Shown: positions 7,320 to 24,867 of the stretch, piece after piece
Layout: each line of letters opens with the position of its first letter
Position numbering within the stretch: position 1 is the first letter of the stretch
Source: a virus
IMG/VR virus record: IMGVR_UViG_3300032236_000025
Location: 1-38,007 of that record
Reading direction: 5' to 3' (one strand)
Length of the DNA stretch: 38,007 bases
Position numbers and translations under genes: made by a program
Notes under the pieces: generated by a model
Told to the model about the DNA's origin: nothing
Database searches by the model: none
The model's input: only the letters and a program-made list of their open reading frames with translations

Positions 7320-7344
7320 ATTATTTTCTAGGGAGTTTCCCTTA
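7320..7344. promoter_or_regulatory. Candidate operator / upstream element (copy 1)
   Basis: The plus strand reads ATTATTTTCTAGG followed by a palindrome AGGGAGTTTCCCT at 7330-7342, immediately upstream of the -35 of the leftward promoter and overlapping the stop codon of the DUF932 gene. The same ATTATTTTCTAGG...TTTCCCT arrangement recurs at 9905-9927 upstream of the second leftward promoter. It could bind the small Cro-like protein or act as an AT-rich UP element. Confidence 0.45.
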
Positions 7345-8313
7345 CTCCGCTAAAAGCAATTCTTCGGCTACGGCTTTAATTCTGTTGCCTTGACCAAACC
7401 ATGCGTTATTCATGCGGGTATCAACATTGTGTCCGCGCTCATGGTCAATGTATTGAGATACAGCATTCAATAATCCCCATTTAGTGCCATAGACACCGTG
7501 ACGGCTTGCGCCCATACCAGCACCGTCAAAAAGTTCTAAGACTCGTTTAAAACCTCGTGATTCTTTGAATGTATTAGTCTGTTGGTTGTACACGGCTGGA
7601 AACAATTCATTGGTAAATGTTTTGGCGTAATCTTCGCTGACTCCAGCCCGTGCTAATTTGCGATATTTGTCCATCATGCCCTCAAAACCAGAAACAACTA
7701 CGCCAAGACGTTCACGCATCAAACTAGCATCAAAATCAGAACCGTGGGTCAAAATGACTCTGCTGGGTGCAGATTCCATGTCTGCCGCAGATAGCGTGTT
7801 ATTGCAAACCACACGGATACTTGTGAACTGTCCAACTGTTGCAGTTGTCCCGTCAAATGATGTGCTTAACAACAAATATCCCCGTACAGCGTCATCATGT
7901 AAGACCACAGCCTCACGGTTTACATTTGCCAAAGCCCAGATGCGTTTACCGCCTTTGATTGCGCCAGCAACCTCAAGAGAAAATCCCGCAGATTGCACCA
8001 AAGTATTAAAAAACTCCAAAACTTCGCTTGGTTGGTGGATTTTGTAACGGTCTGTAACTACGCCTAGAGGTGCATTTGTATCGTTACGGAAGATTACAAC
8101 TTTGTTGTTTACTTGTTCGTATGCGTGTTCTAAATACGGCTGGAATACAACGGGTGCAGTTTTGGCAAGCCAATCAAGACCCGCCTCTTTGCGCCAAACA
8201 TCAATTGGGGCATCTTTGGTCAACTCTTGACCTAATCCATGCCAAGGCGTTTCGCCTACAAATGCTATTTCGTTTTTGCTTGTGATTCTGTTTGTTTCAA
8301 TTAAGTGTGCCAT
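7342..8313 (-). CDS. DUF932 (phage/plasmid-like TIGR03299) protein
   Basis: The protein has 323 residues, the usual length for this family. Family-type elements are GETPWHGLGQ (about 20-29), DAPIDVWRKEAGLDW, GVVTDRYKIHQPSEV (about 83-97), GAIKGGKRIWALA and RVVCNNTLSAA, with a C-terminal HGVYGTKWGLLNAVSQYIDHERG. DUF932 proteins are widespread in phages and plasmids. Their molecular role is not established, though association with replication and recombination genes is common. It is the last gene of the outer leftward block and has an AAGGA ribosome site. Confidence 0.88.
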   Translation of the reverse strand: MAHLIETNRITSKNEIAFVGETPWHGLGQELTKDAPIDVWRKEAGLDWLAKTAPVVFQPYLEHAYEQVNNKVVIFRNDTNAPLGVVTDRYKIHQPSEVLEFFNTLVQSAGFSLEVAGAIKGGKRIWALANVNREAVVLHDDAVRGYLLLSTSFDGTTATVGQFTSIRVVCNNTLSAADMESAPSRVILTHGSDFDASLMRERLGVVVSGFEGMMDKYRKLARAGVSEDYAKTFTNELFPAVYNQQTNTFKESRGFKRVLELFDGAGMGASRHGVYGTKWGLLNAVSQYIDHERGHNVDTRMNNAWFGQGNRIKAVAEELLLAE

Positions 8314-13650: not shown

Positions 13651-14176
13651 TGAAGGGCAAATCGCGCAAATAGCCGCAAGCATTGGGGAATTTGGGTTTA
13701 CGCAACCCGTATTGCTGGATGGTGATAACGGCATCATTGCTGGTCATGGTCGTGTCATGGCGGCTCTTAAATTAGATTTAGAGCAAGTGCCAACCATAGA
13801 ACTGTCGCATCTTAGTGATGACCAAAAACGCGCTTACATAATCGCAGACAACAAAATTGCCGCAAATTCCACATGGGATGAGCAAATGCTTGCTCTAGAA
13901 ATAGACAAATTGAAGGCGGTAGATTTTGATTTAAGCCTTATTGGGTTTCATTCTTTTGAATTGCCAGACCTAAAAGAAAAAGACGATACGGTAGATGTGG
14001 AAGAAGACAAAGAACTCAACTTTACTATTCAGTACAACATTATTTTTGACCATGAAGAACAACAGGATGATTGGTATACCTTTGTGAAATACCTTAAAGA
14101 CACCTATCCTGATGCTGAAACAGTAGCGGAACGCCTCCAATTATTTTTGCGCGGTAACGGCTATGTCACGCGCTAA
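13580..14176 (+). CDS. ParB/sulfiredoxin-fold protein (first of two)
   Basis: The protein has 198 residues from ATG 13580. The N-terminal ParB domain has LIPYAQNARAHSEGQIAQIA (about 13-32), FGFTQPVLLDGDNGIIAGHGRVMAALKL (about 38-65) and the following DDQKRAYIIADNKIA. The C-terminal region (about 130-198) is acidic then aromatic (YNIIFDHEEQQDDWYTFVKYLKD), similar to the tail of ParB proteins linked to phage DNA modification genes. It overlaps the next gene by 14 bases. In this context it resembles IbrB-type partners and is more likely a regulator or specificity factor than a partition protein. Confidence 0.82.
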   Translation: MTLKIKYKKTKDLIPYAQNARAHSEGQIAQIAASIGEFGFTQPVLLDGDNGIIAGHGRVMAALKLDLEQVPTIELSHLSDDQKRAYIIADNKIAANSTWDEQMLALEIDKLKAVDFDLSLIGFHSFELPDLKEKDDTVDVEEDKELNFTIQYNIIFDHEEQQDDWYTFVKYLKDTYPDAETVAERLQLFLRGNGYVTR

Positions 14177-15218
14177 AAAATACATTGATATAGATGTGTT
14201 GACTGCGGCAAAACAACGCATAAACCATTTAATAGACGCATTTGATACTTTGTCCGTTATGTTTTCTGGCGGCAAAGATTCGTTAGTTGTTTTACATCTT
14301 GTAAAAGAAGTCTACGATGAGCGTGGTATCACTAAACCCGTCAATGTAGTGTTTAGAGATGAAGAATTGATACCAATGGAAGTTATTGATTTTGTTAATA
14401 AATATCGCAATGAACCGTGGATAAAAATGGTTTGGTTTGCCGTGCCATTGCAATCTACCAAATATGTCCTTGGTGTTTGCTACAACTACATCCAATGGGA
14501 TAAAAAACGCAAATGGGTTCGTGAAATGCCAGAATGGGCGGTAACGACTCCGCCAGATGATAAACAAGTGTTTGACCAATACAGCATGGATTCCTATGCG
14601 GCTAAATATTACAAAGGAAAAGTCGCATTTTTGACGGGCATTAGGTCTAGCGAATCTATTATGCGGTTTCGCGCATCTGTTAATAAACTCAATGAAAACT
14701 ACATTAATGCGGTTGAATCAACAGATAGGGTAAAACTCTGCAAACCTATCTATGACTGGGAAGAAAACGATGTTTTCCGTTATTTTTATGACCGCAACAT
14801 AGCCTATTGCAAAATTTACGATCAACAAATGTGGGCTGGTCAAGCAATGCGGGTATCAACACCCTTACACGCAGAAAGTTCTAAACGCTTCAATAAAATC
14901 AAATTGAGTGCGCCAGAAATGTATGCCAAACTCATTGAAATATTCCCAGAAATGCTGGCGCATGAGCGTTATTACAGCGAATTAGACAGGGATGGCATAA
15001 AAGAACGCTATGGGCAATCTTATGAAGGCGTGTTGGCATGGATTGAAGAAAACATAAATGAAGAAGGGCAATATAAAAAAGCAATCCAGCGTTACAACAG
15101 CGTCATGGGTCGTGCCGTTAAATTTCCCAATGCTTACCCACCTAAACATCTTCTTAATGCGTTCATGAGTGGCGCATATAAGCGTGAAATTCTCCCTATC
15201 AAAGACAATACAAAATGA
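14163..15218 (+). CDS. PAPS-reductase-like PP-loop protein (IbrA/DUF3440-like)
   Basis: The protein has 351 residues. The N-terminal PP-loop ATP-pyrophosphatase site is VMFSGGKDSLVVLHL (SGGKDS at 35-40), followed by VFRDEELIP (63-71) and GIRSSESIMRFR (159-170). This is the PAPS reductase/IbrA layout. The catalytic ECGxH motif of true CysH is absent. Only three cysteines exist (106, 193, 216), so a DndC-type four-Cys cluster is also lacking. It sits between two ParB-like genes, the IbrA-IbrB arrangement. Possible roles are adenylation-based modification of nucleic acid or regulation; a simple sulfate-assimilation role is less likely. Confidence 0.85.
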   Translation: MSRAKKYIDIDVLTAAKQRINHLIDAFDTLSVMFSGGKDSLVVLHLVKEVYDERGITKPVNVVFRDEELIPMEVIDFVNKYRNEPWIKMVWFAVPLQSTKYVLGVCYNYIQWDKKRKWVREMPEWAVTTPPDDKQVFDQYSMDSYAAKYYKGKVAFLTGIRSSESIMRFRASVNKLNENYINAVESTDRVKLCKPIYDWEENDVFRYFYDRNIAYCKIYDQQMWAGQAMRVSTPLHAESSKRFNKIKLSAPEMYAKLIEIFPEMLAHERYYSELDRDGIKERYGQSYEGVLAWIEENINEEGQYKKAIQRYNSVMGRAVKFPNAYPPKHLLNAFMSGAYKREILPIKDNTK

Positions 15219-19425: not shown

Positions 19426-20820
19426 ATGGGAATGTTTGACATATTCACAAGAAAAAATAAGGTTTCCAACGAATCCAATACGCTTTTTGGGCAAACCGCA
19501 CTTGGGAATAACATTGTTTATCAAGGCAATGACAAACGACCAACGGTTAATACCCAAATACTTTATGTCACAACATCCAGCACGACTACGGCTGGCAGAC
19601 CCGTTGATGTATCGTTATTAACCCGCAATAGCACGGTAATGTCTTGCGTGGCAGTCAAAGCCCGTGCATTGGCTCAATTGCCAATCAAAATCATGGCATT
19701 AAATGATTCTGGGGAATATGTTGATGCTTTAATGGATGAAACCGTTGGTGCGCGGGATAAAGTCAAAGCCAAGCAAGTTTATTCATTGCTCACAAATCCC
19801 AACAATTTTCAATCATCTTACGAATTTTGGTATCAATGGATGATGTGGCATGAATTGCTTGGAGAAGCATTTACCCTGTGGTGGAGAAAAAACCAAGAAG
19901 ATTCCACACAAACGCCATTAGAAATGTATGAAATGGACAGTACGCTAATTGCTGTCCAAATTACGCCAACCCGTTATCCAAGTTACCGTTTGTCTACGCC
20001 TTCATATGGATTTTCTAAAGACGAGCCATTGCAATCACATCAAATTATGCATGTCAAAGATTTGGCATGGCAAGGTTCGGCTGGTTTCAATAAAGGCATT
20101 CTTGCGGCAGAATTGATTGGTCTTGACCAAGACATTGATTTGTATGCCAATTTTGTGATGCTTAATGGCGCAAAACCAAGCGGTATGTTTGTCACAGATA
20201 CCGTAATTCCAGACGCAAAATACAAAGAAATAGCGGCAAGACTTAAAGAAGCATGGTCTAGCATGGTGGGTAGTCAACAAACTGACCCAAGCAAAGTTGG
20301 TCAAGGTATGCTTTTGGACAACGGCATGAAATATATGCCATTGGATATGCTTACCCTTCAAGATGCAGATTTAGCCAATCTTAAAGACCAAACAATGAAA
20401 CGGATTTGCGGTTTGTATGGCGTACCGCCAGCAATGTTGCATATTGGCGATCAAAAATACAACAATACACAGACAATGTTGGATGAATTCTATAAATCCA
20501 CTATGTATCCAATCGTAGTAAATTTACAGCAAAAATTAAAACAGGCTTTGTTTAAAGGCTATCCTAATTTATGCGTAGAATTTGATGTGCAAGATTTCCT
20601 AAAAGGCGCACCGCTAGATCAAATGAACTATGTGGTTGCGGGTGTAAATGCGGGGATAATCACGCCCAATGAGGCGCGAGAATACCTTGGAAAACCAAAT
20701 ATGGATGGTGCAAATGAACTCAATGTTAAAAAATCTGATAACCCAATTGCGGGAACTAGCCCTCAAGATACGGGCGGTGGTGGCGGAAATCAAACTAAAA
20801 AAATGAATATTGGCAAATAA
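19426..20820 (+). CDS. Portal protein (HK97 family)
   Basis: The protein has 464 residues with a strong ribosome site (AAGGGGAAATC). Family elements are STVMSCVAVKARALAQLPIKI (about 67-87), LLTNPNNFQSSYEFWYQWM, HELLGEAF, and then AARLKEAW with DLANLKDQTMKRICGLYGVPPAMLH (about 317-341). The C-terminal tail is Gly-rich. It forms the dodecameric DNA entry ring at a capsid vertex. Confidence 0.93.
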   Translation: MGMFDIFTRKNKVSNESNTLFGQTALGNNIVYQGNDKRPTVNTQILYVTTSSTTTAGRPVDVSLLTRNSTVMSCVAVKARALAQLPIKIMALNDSGEYVDALMDETVGARDKVKAKQVYSLLTNPNNFQSSYEFWYQWMMWHELLGEAFTLWWRKNQEDSTQTPLEMYEMDSTLIAVQITPTRYPSYRLSTPSYGFSKDEPLQSHQIMHVKDLAWQGSAGFNKGILAAELIGLDQDIDLYANFVMLNGAKPSGMFVTDTVIPDAKYKEIAARLKEAWSSMVGSQQTDPSKVGQGMLLDNGMKYMPLDMLTLQDADLANLKDQTMKRICGLYGVPPAMLHIGDQKYNNTQTMLDEFYKSTMYPIVVNLQQKLKQALFKGYPNLCVEFDVQDFLKGAPLDQMNYVVAGVNAGIITPNEAREYLGKPNMDGANELNVKKSDNPIAGTSPQDTGGGGGNQTKKMNIGK

Positions 20821-20951: not shown

Positions 20952-21749
20952 ATGACGCAAAACTTAATGATGGTATGCGAAGCGAAATTGGTACTAGAAA
21001 ACCAAGGCAACGCAGAGCCGACAGGGAAGATTGAAGCCGTTGTAACTACTTGGGGTGCGCGTGAAGGCGCAGACGGTAGACGCTTTAATTACCAGCCAGA
21101 AGCATTCATGGATTGGGCAGAATCTTTTTCTAAAGAAAGTCGCCCATTACCAATGTTTGTAAATCATGATGCTGATTCAATCCCAGTTGGTGAATGGACA
21201 TCATTTGAGTTTGATGATAAAGGTATGTCTGCACAAGGGCGTATCTACATGAATACAACACAAGGTTCAGACCTTTACCAAGTAATGAGTGAAAGCCCCA
21301 ATATGTTTGGTGGCGTTTCTGTTGGCGCATACGCTGACGAATATCAATGGGTTAAAGAAGATGGCACACCAATGACAATTGGTAGTGATGACCCATACGA
21401 AAATGGATATTTCCAAATTACAAAAGGTGGATTGCGCGAAGTTAGCGTAGTTATGTATCCAAACAATCCAATGGCAGAAGTGCAAAAATTAGAGTTTTTC
21501 CGTGAAGATGGAACTGCTGATTTAAAAATTTTGGAACGGGCATTGCGCGATGCAAGCCTGTCTAAAAAGGATGCGGTCACAGCCGCATCTATCTTCAAGA
21601 AAGTTCTGGAACAGCGTGATGCCTCCAAACCTATTGAAAATGCGCCCCAACTGAGCGACTCAGATGTGGATGTGACCGAAGCGGAGATTCTTAAAGCCTT
21701 AAATGAGCGCGAGATTCTCAAACAACTTAATACTCGACTGAAAGGTTAA
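20952..21749 (+). CDS. HK97-family prohead protease
   Basis: The protein has 265 residues with GAGGTAATAC before the ATG. The S78-type core has MFVNHDADSIPVGEW (His72) and GGVSVGAYADEY (Ser123), followed by GLREVSVVMYPNNPMAEV, all standard for the family. The C-terminal part (about 185-265) is charged and helical and would be self-cleaved. It processes the capsid delta domain during prohead maturation. Only the first of the two downstream capsid genes carries a delta-like region. Confidence 0.92.
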   Translation: MTQNLMMVCEAKLVLENQGNAEPTGKIEAVVTTWGAREGADGRRFNYQPEAFMDWAESFSKESRPLPMFVNHDADSIPVGEWTSFEFDDKGMSAQGRIYMNTTQGSDLYQVMSESPNMFGGVSVGAYADEYQWVKEDGTPMTIGSDDPYENGYFQITKGGLREVSVVMYPNNPMAEVQKLEFFREDGTADLKILERALRDASLSKKDAVTAASIFKKVLEQRDASKPIENAPQLSDSDVDVTEAEILKALNEREILKQLNTRLKG

Positions 21750-21751
21750 TC

Positions 21752-23101
21752 ATGTCACAAGTTATTTTAGAAAAATTGGATGCAATTGAAGCGGCAAATA
21801 CCGCGAAAATTGAAGAAGTTACTGCACAAGCACAAGCATCTGTGGAAGCCGTTAAAGCGGAATTCCAAGAAATCGTTTCTGCTTTGGAAGCCAAAGTAGC
21901 ATCTGTTCAAGCACCCGCAATCATCCGCGCACCATCCAAAACTGTTCGCACAGATGTAAATCGTTCAGTTAAAGAACAAATTGCCGCCTACTATAAAGGT
22001 GGTCGCAATGTTGAAAAAGAACTGAAGATGTTTGAAGATGAGGGTCAATATGACGCATATTTGGCTGAAGCATCTGCATTGACTGCTGGTGGTGATGGCA
22101 AGGGTGGTCGTACCGCTTATGACCCTGTGTTTGTTGCTTTGCGTTTGGCTAACCCAATGCGTGGCATTTCACGCACAGTTGCAACTGATGGTTCTTCATA
22201 TCAATTTAGATTGAAGAGCGGAAACGCTGGCGCGGCTTGGGGATATTCCATTCAAAACAATGGTTCAACCACAACTGAAGACACAAACATTTGGCAATTA
22301 GTTTTGCAAGATTTGAATGTGCAATTCCCAATCCGTACTGCCGCTTTGGATGACATTGATGGTTTGGAAGCAAATGTGGTTGACGATATGTTGGCTGAGT
22401 TTGCACAATCTGAAGCCTTGTCAATGATTCAAAACAATGACCAAGCCGCACAATCTGGCACTAACCCTTATGGTGGTACTAATGGTTTGCGTGGTCTTGA
22501 CCAATACGCTGGTGCGAATGCTACCTACACAGGTGGAACATTCTCTACACCCGCATTTGGAACAAGCGGTACAGGTTCATCAAGTGGCTTGCATAGCCTT
22601 GCAACCTATGACCAGTTAACAACTAATGCAAACACAGTTGGTGCAAATAACATTTCTTATAAAGATGTGATTAACACCATGTATGCATTGCCACAACAAT
22701 ATTGGACACCAAATGCGCGTTGGATGGTTAACCCAATCTTGGCTCAAGCAATTCGCGGTCTGCAAGACACCAATGGTCGTCCAATCTTTAACTCTGTTGA
22801 ATCATTGAACCCAGACGGCATCATTGGTCAAATGTTGGGCTTTGATGTTGTCATGAACAAGTATCTTGACAATCCTTCACAAGCAACAACTGGTTCTGCT
22901 GGCACAAACAGTTTATACCCAATGTATTTTGCTGATTGGTCGCGTTTCCACACAATCGTTGATCGTTTGAACATGGTTATGCGTAGATACGACCAGACAC
23001 TCCCAGGATATATAACATTTTTTGGAGAAAAAAGATTAGCGACAAGTGTTCGTGATCCTAATGCTGGTGTTCGCTATCGCAGTACAGGAACGGCTACCTA
23101 A
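21752..23101 (+). CDS. Major capsid protein 1 (HK97 fold, with delta-like N-terminal region)
   Basis: The protein has 449 residues. Residues about 1-105 are helical and Ala/Glu/Lys-rich (for example IEEVTAQAQASVEAVKAEFQ), like an HK97 delta scaffold domain. The mature fold follows: GGRTAYDPVFVALRLANPMR (about 118-137), NIWQLVLQDLNVQFPIRTA, ALSMIQNNDQAAQSG with GGTNGLRGL (about 222-246), MYFADWSRFHTIVDR, FFGEKRLATSVRDPNAGVRY near the end. It lies right after the protease. A strong terminator after the gene would boost its share over the second capsid gene. Confidence 0.93.
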   Translation: MSQVILEKLDAIEAANTAKIEEVTAQAQASVEAVKAEFQEIVSALEAKVASVQAPAIIRAPSKTVRTDVNRSVKEQIAAYYKGGRNVEKELKMFEDEGQYDAYLAEASALTAGGDGKGGRTAYDPVFVALRLANPMRGISRTVATDGSSYQFRLKSGNAGAAWGYSIQNNGSTTTEDTNIWQLVLQDLNVQFPIRTAALDDIDGLEANVVDDMLAEFAQSEALSMIQNNDQAAQSGTNPYGGTNGLRGLDQYAGANATYTGGTFSTPAFGTSGTGSSSGLHSLATYDQLTTNANTVGANNISYKDVINTMYALPQQYWTPNARWMVNPILAQAIRGLQDTNGRPIFNSVESLNPDGIIGQMLGFDVVMNKYLDNPSQATTGSAGTNSLYPMYFADWSRFHTIVDRLNMVMRRYDQTLPGYITFFGEKRLATSVRDPNAGVRYRSTGTAT

Positions 23102-23114
23102 TAGTTGCCAACTT

Positions 23115-23141
23115 GGTGGGGGGTTCGCCCCTCACCTTTTT
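23115..23141 (+). terminator. Intrinsic terminator between the two capsid genes
   Basis: GGTGGGGGG (23115-23123), a TTCG tetraloop (23124-23127) and CCCCTCACC (23128-23136) form a nine-pair stem with one G-T wobble, directly followed by TTTTT. This is a textbook Rho-independent terminator with a UUCG loop, 14 bases after the MCP1 stop and 27 bases before the MCP2 start. It should attenuate expression of everything downstream relative to MCP1. Confidence 0.85.
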
Positions 23142-23167
23142 CTTGCAACCCAATTTGGATAAACAAA

Positions 23168-24196
23168 ATGACCATCACCGAAAAAATCCTATCAGGCATT
23201 AAGCAAACACTAGAGACAGGCGATCAAATCAAGATTGATTTGCGCGAAGCGTCTGCAATCACAGGCTCTGGTTATGGGGTTGGTGGTCGCACTTTCTTTG
23301 ATAATGCATTTGCGGCTTTACGCTATGCAAACCCGATTCGCCAAGTAGCGCGTGTTCTTCCCGCTTCTGGCTCTGCTGTTCAGTTTGTCGCTAAGACGGG
23401 TAATGCCGCAAGCCAAACTAATCCTTGGACATATACATTTACGCCTAATAGTGGCACACCAAACACAGACACAAGCATTTGGCAATTGCCTACTCGCGTT
23501 ATCACGGCACAATTGCCAATCCGCACGGCAGTAATGTCTGATGTAAATTATTTAAACGAAACAATTGTTGAAGATTTGGCAATGGAATTTGCGTCTATTG
23601 AAGGCGCATCTATGATTCAAAACAACGACCAATCTGGTTCTACTACTACAACAACTGGTGGAACAAATGGTTTGCGTGGTTTGAATTATTACACCAGCGC
23701 GGCATCTTCTGCTTATGGCTCTAGTGGTTACGCAATCACGGATGGTATACATTCAATTGCAACCTTTACTCAAGCGGCGGCGGCAATCTCTTATAGCGAC
23801 ATTACTGATATGGCGCGTCTGTTTCCGCCACAGTATTGGAATTCACCATATACCGCATGGATGATGCATCCACAAACAATTCACAGTTTGCGAAACCTTG
23901 GTGGCGCGGCAGTTATTAAACAGTTTGCTGAAGTTGGTGATGGTGATGGCGGTGCAGTTACCCACATTTTTGGATTCCCTGTAATTCCTAATGCCAACAT
24001 GAGTTTGGTTGGTGCTGGTAACTTCAGCATCTATTTAGCCGATTGGTCGCGTTTTGTAACTATTGCAGATGTTGAAGAAATGACTGTGCAAGCAATGGAG
24101 CAAACACAGGCTGGATTCATAACCCTGTATGCTGAAAAACGCATGGTCAGCACAGTTCGTGACCCATTTGCTGGTATTCGTTTAGTCGGAGTTTAA
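23168..24196 (+). CDS. Second HK97-fold capsid protein, paralogue of MCP1 without the delta region
   Basis: The protein has 342 residues from ATG 23168; the longer frame from 23105 crosses the terminator. It aligns with MCP1 along the mature core: LREASAITGS and GGRTFFDNAFAALRYANPIR correspond to LAEASALTAG and GGRTAYDPVFVALRLANPMR. TSIWQLP...AQLPIRTA, GASMIQNNDQ, GGTNGLRGLNYY, YLADWSRFVTIAD and LYAEKRMVSTVRDPFAGIRL also match. It lacks MCP1's first ~105 residues. It may form pentons, a minor shell component or an alternative capsid, as gp24 does for gp23 in T4. Confidence 0.9.
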   Translation: MTITEKILSGIKQTLETGDQIKIDLREASAITGSGYGVGGRTFFDNAFAALRYANPIRQVARVLPASGSAVQFVAKTGNAASQTNPWTYTFTPNSGTPNTDTSIWQLPTRVITAQLPIRTAVMSDVNYLNETIVEDLAMEFASIEGASMIQNNDQSGSTTTTTGGTNGLRGLNYYTSAASSAYGSSGYAITDGIHSIATFTQAAAAISYSDITDMARLFPPQYWNSPYTAWMMHPQTIHSLRNLGGAAVIKQFAEVGDGDGGAVTHIFGFPVIPNANMSLVGAGNFSIYLADWSRFVTIADVEEMTVQAMEQTQAGFITLYAEKRMVSTVRDPFAGIRLVGV

Positions 24197-24198
24197 TT

Positions 24199-24867
24199 AT
24201 GTCTGTTGACCAAACAGGCTTTTTAAACTATGGCGCACCTACGCGCAATCCTTTCAATTATGCAAAGGTTGAACAGATTGCCCGTGACATAGCAACGCCT
24301 TGGCTGTCATTAATTGAAATCACCAATCAACTTAACTTGTTTGGTGATGAAAGTCAGGATGAATATTTACAAGGGCTAGAAGTAGCGACTAGACAGGCTA
24401 TTGAAGACTATCTAGGTCTATTTGTATTTCCCGCGTCTTATCGCGTCTGGTACAACGCTTCAAGCCTTTATGGAACGCCTTTAACGCTAGACTTGCCAGA
24501 GGTTAGCCAAAACTACAACGCAACTCAAGCGGGTGTTACTGTAAATGCGGTTAAGTATTGGTCAGATACAACTGTGCCTGTTTTATACACAGTTTCAGCA
24601 ACCACTTATTACTATGACCCATCTGGTAACAAGATTGTTTTGCAAACCTTGCCGACAAATCTAAATTCCAGTATGACAAGCCCTGTCTATTGTGAATACA
24701 CAACTGCATCCAGCCCCATAGCCACATACCCTGTGGTTAAGCAAGCGGGCTTATTGCTTTTGACGCATCTTTATAACAATCGTAGCGATACAACAGACAA
24801 TCAATTGAAAAACATTCCATTTGGCGTGTCGACATTGTTACGCCCTTATAAGCCATTGGTGATGTAA
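24199..24867 (+). CDS. Head-tail connector (gp6-like adaptor)
   Basis: The protein has 222 residues. The N-terminal helical bundle has LSLIEITNQLNL and QGLEVATRQAIEDYLGLF (about 55-72), and the C-terminus VVKQAGLLLLTHLYNNRSDT ... LKNIPFGVSTLLRPYKPLVM is the hallmark of HK97 gp6-type adaptors. A longer central beta insert (about 80-165) is present. It docks below the portal ring. Confidence 0.85.
   Translation: MSVDQTGFLNYGAPTRNPFNYAKVEQIARDIATPWLSLIEITNQLNLFGDESQDEYLQGLEVATRQAIEDYLGLFVFPASYRVWYNASSLYGTPLTLDLPEVSQNYNATQAGVTVNAVKYWSDTTVPVLYTVSATTYYYDPSGNKIVLQTLPTNLNSSMTSPVYCEYTTASSPIATYPVVKQAGLLLLTHLYNNRSDTTDNQLKNIPFGVSTLLRPYKPLVM

Follow-up and report, generated by a model that had tools for sequence, protein, structure and literature searches.

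Why does a phage genome of about 38 kb carry two adjacent genes that each encode an HK97-fold capsid protein, and what part does the second protein play in the head? The window, meaning the whole stretch of DNA that was analysed, is a virus record of 38,007 bases. Its head and tail cluster is siphovirus-like, with genes for the small and large terminase, portal, S78 protease, the two capsid proteins (termed MCP1 and MCP2), connector, major tail protein and tape measure.

Two paralogous genes in one head cluster

The features of the head region are as follows:

19426..20820, plus strand: portal protein (Pfam PF04860, 8e-62)
20952..21749, plus strand: prohead protease of the Peptidase_S78 family (Pfam PF04586, 4e-10; PHROG_80, 9e-15)
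21752..23101, plus strand: MCP1, HK97-fold major capsid protein with an N-terminal delta-like region, 449 aa, proposed hexamer protein (Pfam, PHROG, RcGTA profile, AF2)
21752..22066, plus strand: delta-like N-terminal region of MCP1 (approximately residues 1-105), absent from MCP2 (MCP1-only segments, predicted helices)
23168..24196, plus strand: MCP2, HK97-fold paralog without the delta region, 342 aa, ATG start, proposed vertex (penton) protein (Pfam, AF2/Foldseek)
24199..24867, plus strand: head-tail connector/adaptor, the next gene past MCP2 (PHROG_40, 3e-12; PF05135, 2.7e-5)

Elsewhere in the window, a protein with a PAPS reductase-family domain (PF01507, 1.5e-17) is encoded at 14163-15218, and a DUF932 protein (3e-51), for which no role was assigned, is encoded on the minus strand of the early region at 7342-8313.

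Both capsid reading frames are intact at these positions, and their description in the initial annotation as tandem paralogous HK97-fold capsid genes was borne out. A BLASTP alignment spanning MCP1 residues 92-441 gave 136 identical positions out of 356 (38%, E = 2e-66), and both proteins matched Phage_capsid (PF05065), MCP1 at 2.5e-26 with 93.1 bits and MCP2 at 1.2e-22 with 81.0 bits, each above the curated cut-off of 24.2 bits. All of the motifs that had been listed as common to the two proteins are present. The major head protein family PHROG_10 was matched by MCP1 (1.9e-27) and by MCP2, and the solved chain nearest to both by sequence profile is the RcGTA capsid Rcc01687 (1.4e-8 for MCP1). 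The assignment of MCP2 to the HK97 fold also held, as an AF2 model made with alignments of relatives taken from viral loci (pTM 0.70, mean pLDDT 65) had the RcGTA capsid 6tb9 as its best Foldseek match (E 4.2e-16) and matched HK97 (1ohg, E 4e-13) as well. The MCP1 model was of low confidence (pTM 0.52, mean pLDDT 55), with the RcGTA capsid 6tsu as best match (E 5.9e-14); the models of both proteins are single-chain models of modest confidence, a kind that cannot tell a pentamer from a hexamer.

The delta-like region is, as had been claimed, found in the first protein only. In an alignment of both families, residues 5-59, 61-63 and 80-95, plus three short loops, are present only in MCP1, and the MCP1 model has a long N-terminal helix (3-50) followed by helices at 69-111, with approximately 55 residues separating the N-terminal helix from the core. 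By analogy with HK97, this region would serve as an internal scaffold. The residues ahead of a common EASAxT junction number approximately 105 in MCP1 and 26 in MCP2, where the N-terminal segment is conserved and ends in the same EASAxTGSG-type junction. The earlier claim that the protease processes only MCP1 is unsupported, since MCP2 shares this junction and T4 gp24 loses a propeptide of 10 residues (65 in gp23) to its prohead protease (PMC9958956); MCP2 may therefore also be cleaved.

As a gene transfer agent capsid is the closest solved relative by both sequence and fold, the two genes could specify two alternative shells, with MCP1 and MCP2 particles of unlike size or kind; MCP2 might, for instance, form a small shell that is empty or resembles a gene transfer agent. 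This is very improbable, because the genes share a single operon, terminase, portal and protease, MCP2 is without the delta domain and no separate scaffold gene was recognised, and RcGTA is the best match for MCP1 as well.

Comparison with relatives placed the start of MCP2 at ATG 23168 and not at the listed TTG 23105, which would add 21 residues read from an intergenic hairpin; the equivalent ATG begins MCP2 in 122 of 122 pairs of relatives. This start and the conserved hairpin had both been overlooked in the initial annotation. Across 30 diverse loci, MCP2 identity is 56-82%. The protein retains the full HK97 core, with 54 alignment columns conserved in both families, as is expected of a capsomer-forming protein. 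Alignment columns that are fixed differently in the two families were considered as a mark of pentamer specialisation and set aside as uninformative, as there are only two of them and they give no clear sequence mark of this kind.

MCP2 could alternatively be an HK97-fold head protein that lies outside the lattice, as a portal-vertex surround, an internal or assembly-only factor, or an outer layer. It is encoded with the connector genes, directly before the head-tail adaptor, and in one sub-clade it has gained an N-terminal domain that elsewhere is carried by prohead proteases or protease-capsid fusions, both of which would suit such a role. We judge it improbable all the same, as the E-loop, spine helix and A-domain typical of a lattice subunit are all retained in the MCP2 sequence, and HK97-fold proteins are almost always subunits of the shell lattice.

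The added domain is approximately 100 aa in length, carries the motif YPSAGRIAWALWGGD..K.WA and is found at 12 loci:

L187:5692-7017: MCP2 with the added domain; also in L188, L189, L190, L192, L193, L195, L198, L199, L203, L204 and L206

No Pfam name applies to it, and its PHROG match is PHROG_2859, a family with no assigned function. Its carriers elsewhere are the prohead proteases or protease-capsid fusions of Pontimonas phiPsal1 and Synechococcus S-CBS1, and it is probably present in the Roseobacter CRP phages too. The domain thereby ties the MCP2 N-terminus to head assembly, and perhaps also to the protease. In Synechococcus phage S-CBS1 (L272:2465-4975), the protein named 'major capsid protein' is 836 aa long and looks like a protease-capsid fusion: it matches Phage_capsid over 580-832 and, weakly and below the threshold, the S78 protease over 266-374.

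Distribution and origin of the pair

The pair proved to be widespread and intact when its relatives were searched for. Wherever at least 1.3 kb of downstream sequence was available (267 distinct loci), MCP2 follows MCP1, and MCP1 likewise precedes MCP2 in all 254 with at least 1.5 kb upstream. Methylophilaceae phage P19250A was the sole one of 50,697 phage records with close relatives of either protein, and it encodes both, adjoining. Hundreds of relatives were found in IMG/VR (592 and 445 confirmed in the first two scans), and the pair is also carried on three bacterial or archaeal MAG contigs. Throughout this large family of small (~38-kb) freshwater phages, the genes are always adjacent and in the order MCP1, hairpin, MCP2. 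The MAG contigs are assigned to different phyla or classes, namely Candidatus Nitrosotalea (L186), Alphaproteobacteria (L185) and Betaproteobacteria (L184), and the archaeal occurrence is probably a binning error.

Purifying selection acts on the two genes alike, with a median dN/dS of 0.11 for MCP1 and 0.13 for MCP2. In a maximum-likelihood tree, built without T4 proteins, 61 MCP1s formed one clade and 61 MCP2s the other (SH-aLRT 92 and 98), and these were mutual closest relatives, with the MCPs of other phages falling outside. The pair is thus derived from a single duplication that is older than the radiation of the phage family. The viral scans, together with one genome scan, turned up no single-copy lineage from before the duplication.

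The median p-distance is 0.42 for MCP2 and 0.30 for MCP1, so that MCP2 diverges the faster of the two, as might a decaying or selfish duplicate without function. This explanation is refuted by the retention of MCP2 in every locus, its low dN/dS, reading frames that are intact in nearly all loci, and the one ancient origin.

The MCP1 and MCP2 trees conflict in places, and the distance correlation for all neighbouring gene pairs among the relatives is moderate, at 0.13-0.68. There is strong mosaicism of the head and tail genes within the family, and the idea that MCP2 is a special swapped module was rejected, as comparable mosaicism is seen in all the neighbouring gene pairs.

A terminator-like hairpin between the genes

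The junction between the two genes contains one further feature:

23115..23136, plus strand, between MCP1 and MCP2: intrinsic-terminator-like hairpin GGTGGGGGGTTCGCCCCTCACC followed by TTTTT, proposed transcription attenuator

The window has no other strong terminator on its plus strand. In relatives, the gap between MCP1 and MCP2 is 50-77 nt and holds a strong GC-rich hairpin, which was detected at 224 of 225 distinct junctions; the exception, L217, is a record with a frameshift. At least 7 pairs with 5 GC were present at 97% of the 225, the remainder being L217 or hairpins of 6 counted pairs; by the same criterion, hairpins were present at 12% of the adjacent downstream junctions and 6% of those upstream. 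When a U-tract was also required, the count was 118 of 119 MCP1|MCP2 junctions versus 0 of 113 and 2 of 107 at the neighbouring junctions. The stem arms pair at 97.6% of positions, versus 72% when the arms are re-dealt among sequences, and the stem sequences vary widely while this pairing persists (covariation). As a GC-rich hairpin with a U-tract at a conserved place, the element qualifies by sequence as an intrinsic (rho-independent) terminator. At least 4 T within the 8 bases past the stem were found at 126 of 138 distinct junctions; the other 12, which are distant junctions, have fewer, and stopping transcription may therefore not be the role of the hairpin everywhere. Protection of the mRNA is an alternative role at junctions of this kind.

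The hairpin was considered as special to phages with two MCPs, and this was rejected because capsid genes are often followed by such hairpins. In HK97, a putative terminator is annotated directly after gene 5, several single-MCP phages (KS9, ctuI) also have a hairpin after the capsid gene, and in T4 gene 23 is followed by AGGGAACCTTCGGGTTCCCTTTTTT, a terminator directly 3' of the major gene. It follows that the hairpin marks the major gene only and is no proof of a penton role, and that an attenuator fits any role in which less MCP2 is needed. Its position says that MCP1 is in the usual 'major capsid' slot and MCP2 on the predicted low-expression side, with the connectors.

In one relative, an ORF of 180 aa (L003:7462-8004) lies between the hairpin and MCP2, with a GIY-YIG-like motif seen by eye (FYIGKG) and no Pfam family reported; it is placed as SegD is in T4, between genes 23 and 24.

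A proposed two-gene shell and its comparison with known systems

A major gene with a long propeptide, a terminator and a paralog with a short propeptide follow one another as they do at T4 genes 23 and 24, which points to a hexamer role for MCP1 and a penton role for MCP2. On this analogy, the shell is probably built from two genes, with MCP1 forming the hexamers and MCP2, at a lower level, the pentamers. MCP1, with its delta domain, would be the major subunit that forms hexamers and drives procapsid assembly. Some transcription would end at the hairpin, leaving MCP2, the connector and the tail genes expressed at a lower level, and MCP2, with no scaffold domain of its own, would join the MCP1 lattice to form 11 pentameric vertices, at approximately 55 copies versus 360 of MCP1 if the head is T=7. 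As with T4 gp24, the prohead protease may remove a short N-terminal segment from MCP2, which we infer to be present in virions. The junctions that have no good U-tract, the want of a clear pentamer mark and the modest models all speak against a penton role, and the general view that a single protein supplies both capsomers in small phages counts against a two-gene shell.

MCP2 may instead be a minor subunit that co-assembles with MCP1 in both hexamers and pentamers, giving a hetero-capsomer shell as in the Family 2B encapsulins. It retains the full core that this would need, its 38% identity to MCP1 is higher than the approximately 20% between T4 gp23 and gp24 (PMC9958956) and would make mixed contacts easier, and randomly mixed HK97-fold shells do exist (PMC12407261). 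MCP2 is, however, without the delta domain that would guide it into the same capsomers, and the single ancient duplication, universal retention and unequal predicted expression fit fixed, distinct roles better, so that co-assembly appears unlikely, if worth bearing in mind.

If MCP2 is the penton protein, its evolutionary history would be of wider interest. T4 was absent from the tblastn matches up to E = 10, and as no sequence link was found, the likeness to T4 would be convergent. The balance tips slightly towards a second origin of a dedicated penton protein, separate from that in T4, within a large family of small (~38 kb) freshwater phages, where a copy behind the capsid terminator would have become a vertex protein through lower expression and loss of the scaffold domain. 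If true, this would provide a second, independent system in which to ask why and how vertex proteins come about, and how the place of a subunit is set by expression ratio and scaffold-domain loss.

Among known systems, P19250A (KX815270) has the same pair at 62% and 54% identity, adjacent and with the hairpin between; its MCP2 is annotated only as a hypothetical protein, and widespread genes of this kind would be named as shell proteins. Neither a paper on the pair nor a structure from P19250A was found in the openly readable literature. RcGTA (PDB 6tb9, 6tsu, 6tba) provides the closest solved structure to both proteins and differs in that the match goes through one MCP; to our knowledge, it has no paralogous shell protein. 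As in HK97 and other single-MCP phages, the gene order is portal, S78 protease, MCP and connector, the MCP carries a delta domain and the HK97 fold, and a terminator-like hairpin follows its gene. In HK97, however, one gene product (gp5) supplies both hexamers and pentamers, where here there are two genes. JBD30 and Patience were rejected as further two-gene HK97 shells, since 'two major capsid proteins' means something else there, as was phiCbK, in which processing of one and the same gene product yields the putative vertex protein.

The two-component Family 2B encapsulins (Enc1/Enc2) are alike in that two HK97-fold paralogs are encoded and assembled together (PMC12407261), but they enclose compartments that are not viral, have neither portal nor DNA packaging, and mix the two proteins at random. 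In T4, as here, HK97-fold paralogs are encoded together with the vertex gene (here the putative one) downstream of the major capsid gene, a terminator lies directly after the major gene (gene 23; MCP1), and the N-terminal stretch of the second protein is much shorter (for MCP2 and MCP1, the lengths before the EASA junction given above, taken from sequence). T4 gp24 forms 11 vertices and is thought to be derived from gp23 by duplication, and its attachment has been suggested as the protease trigger (PMC9958956). T4 differs from the phages described here: it is a prolate myovirus of 169 kb, has its scaffold as a separate core and uses another protease. It has been called the single virus known with separate HK97-fold proteins for pentamers and hexamers (PMC12407261; PMC13185644), and a strictly conserved pair in hundreds of ~38-kb phage loci would show that division of the shell between two genes extends to small tailed phages.
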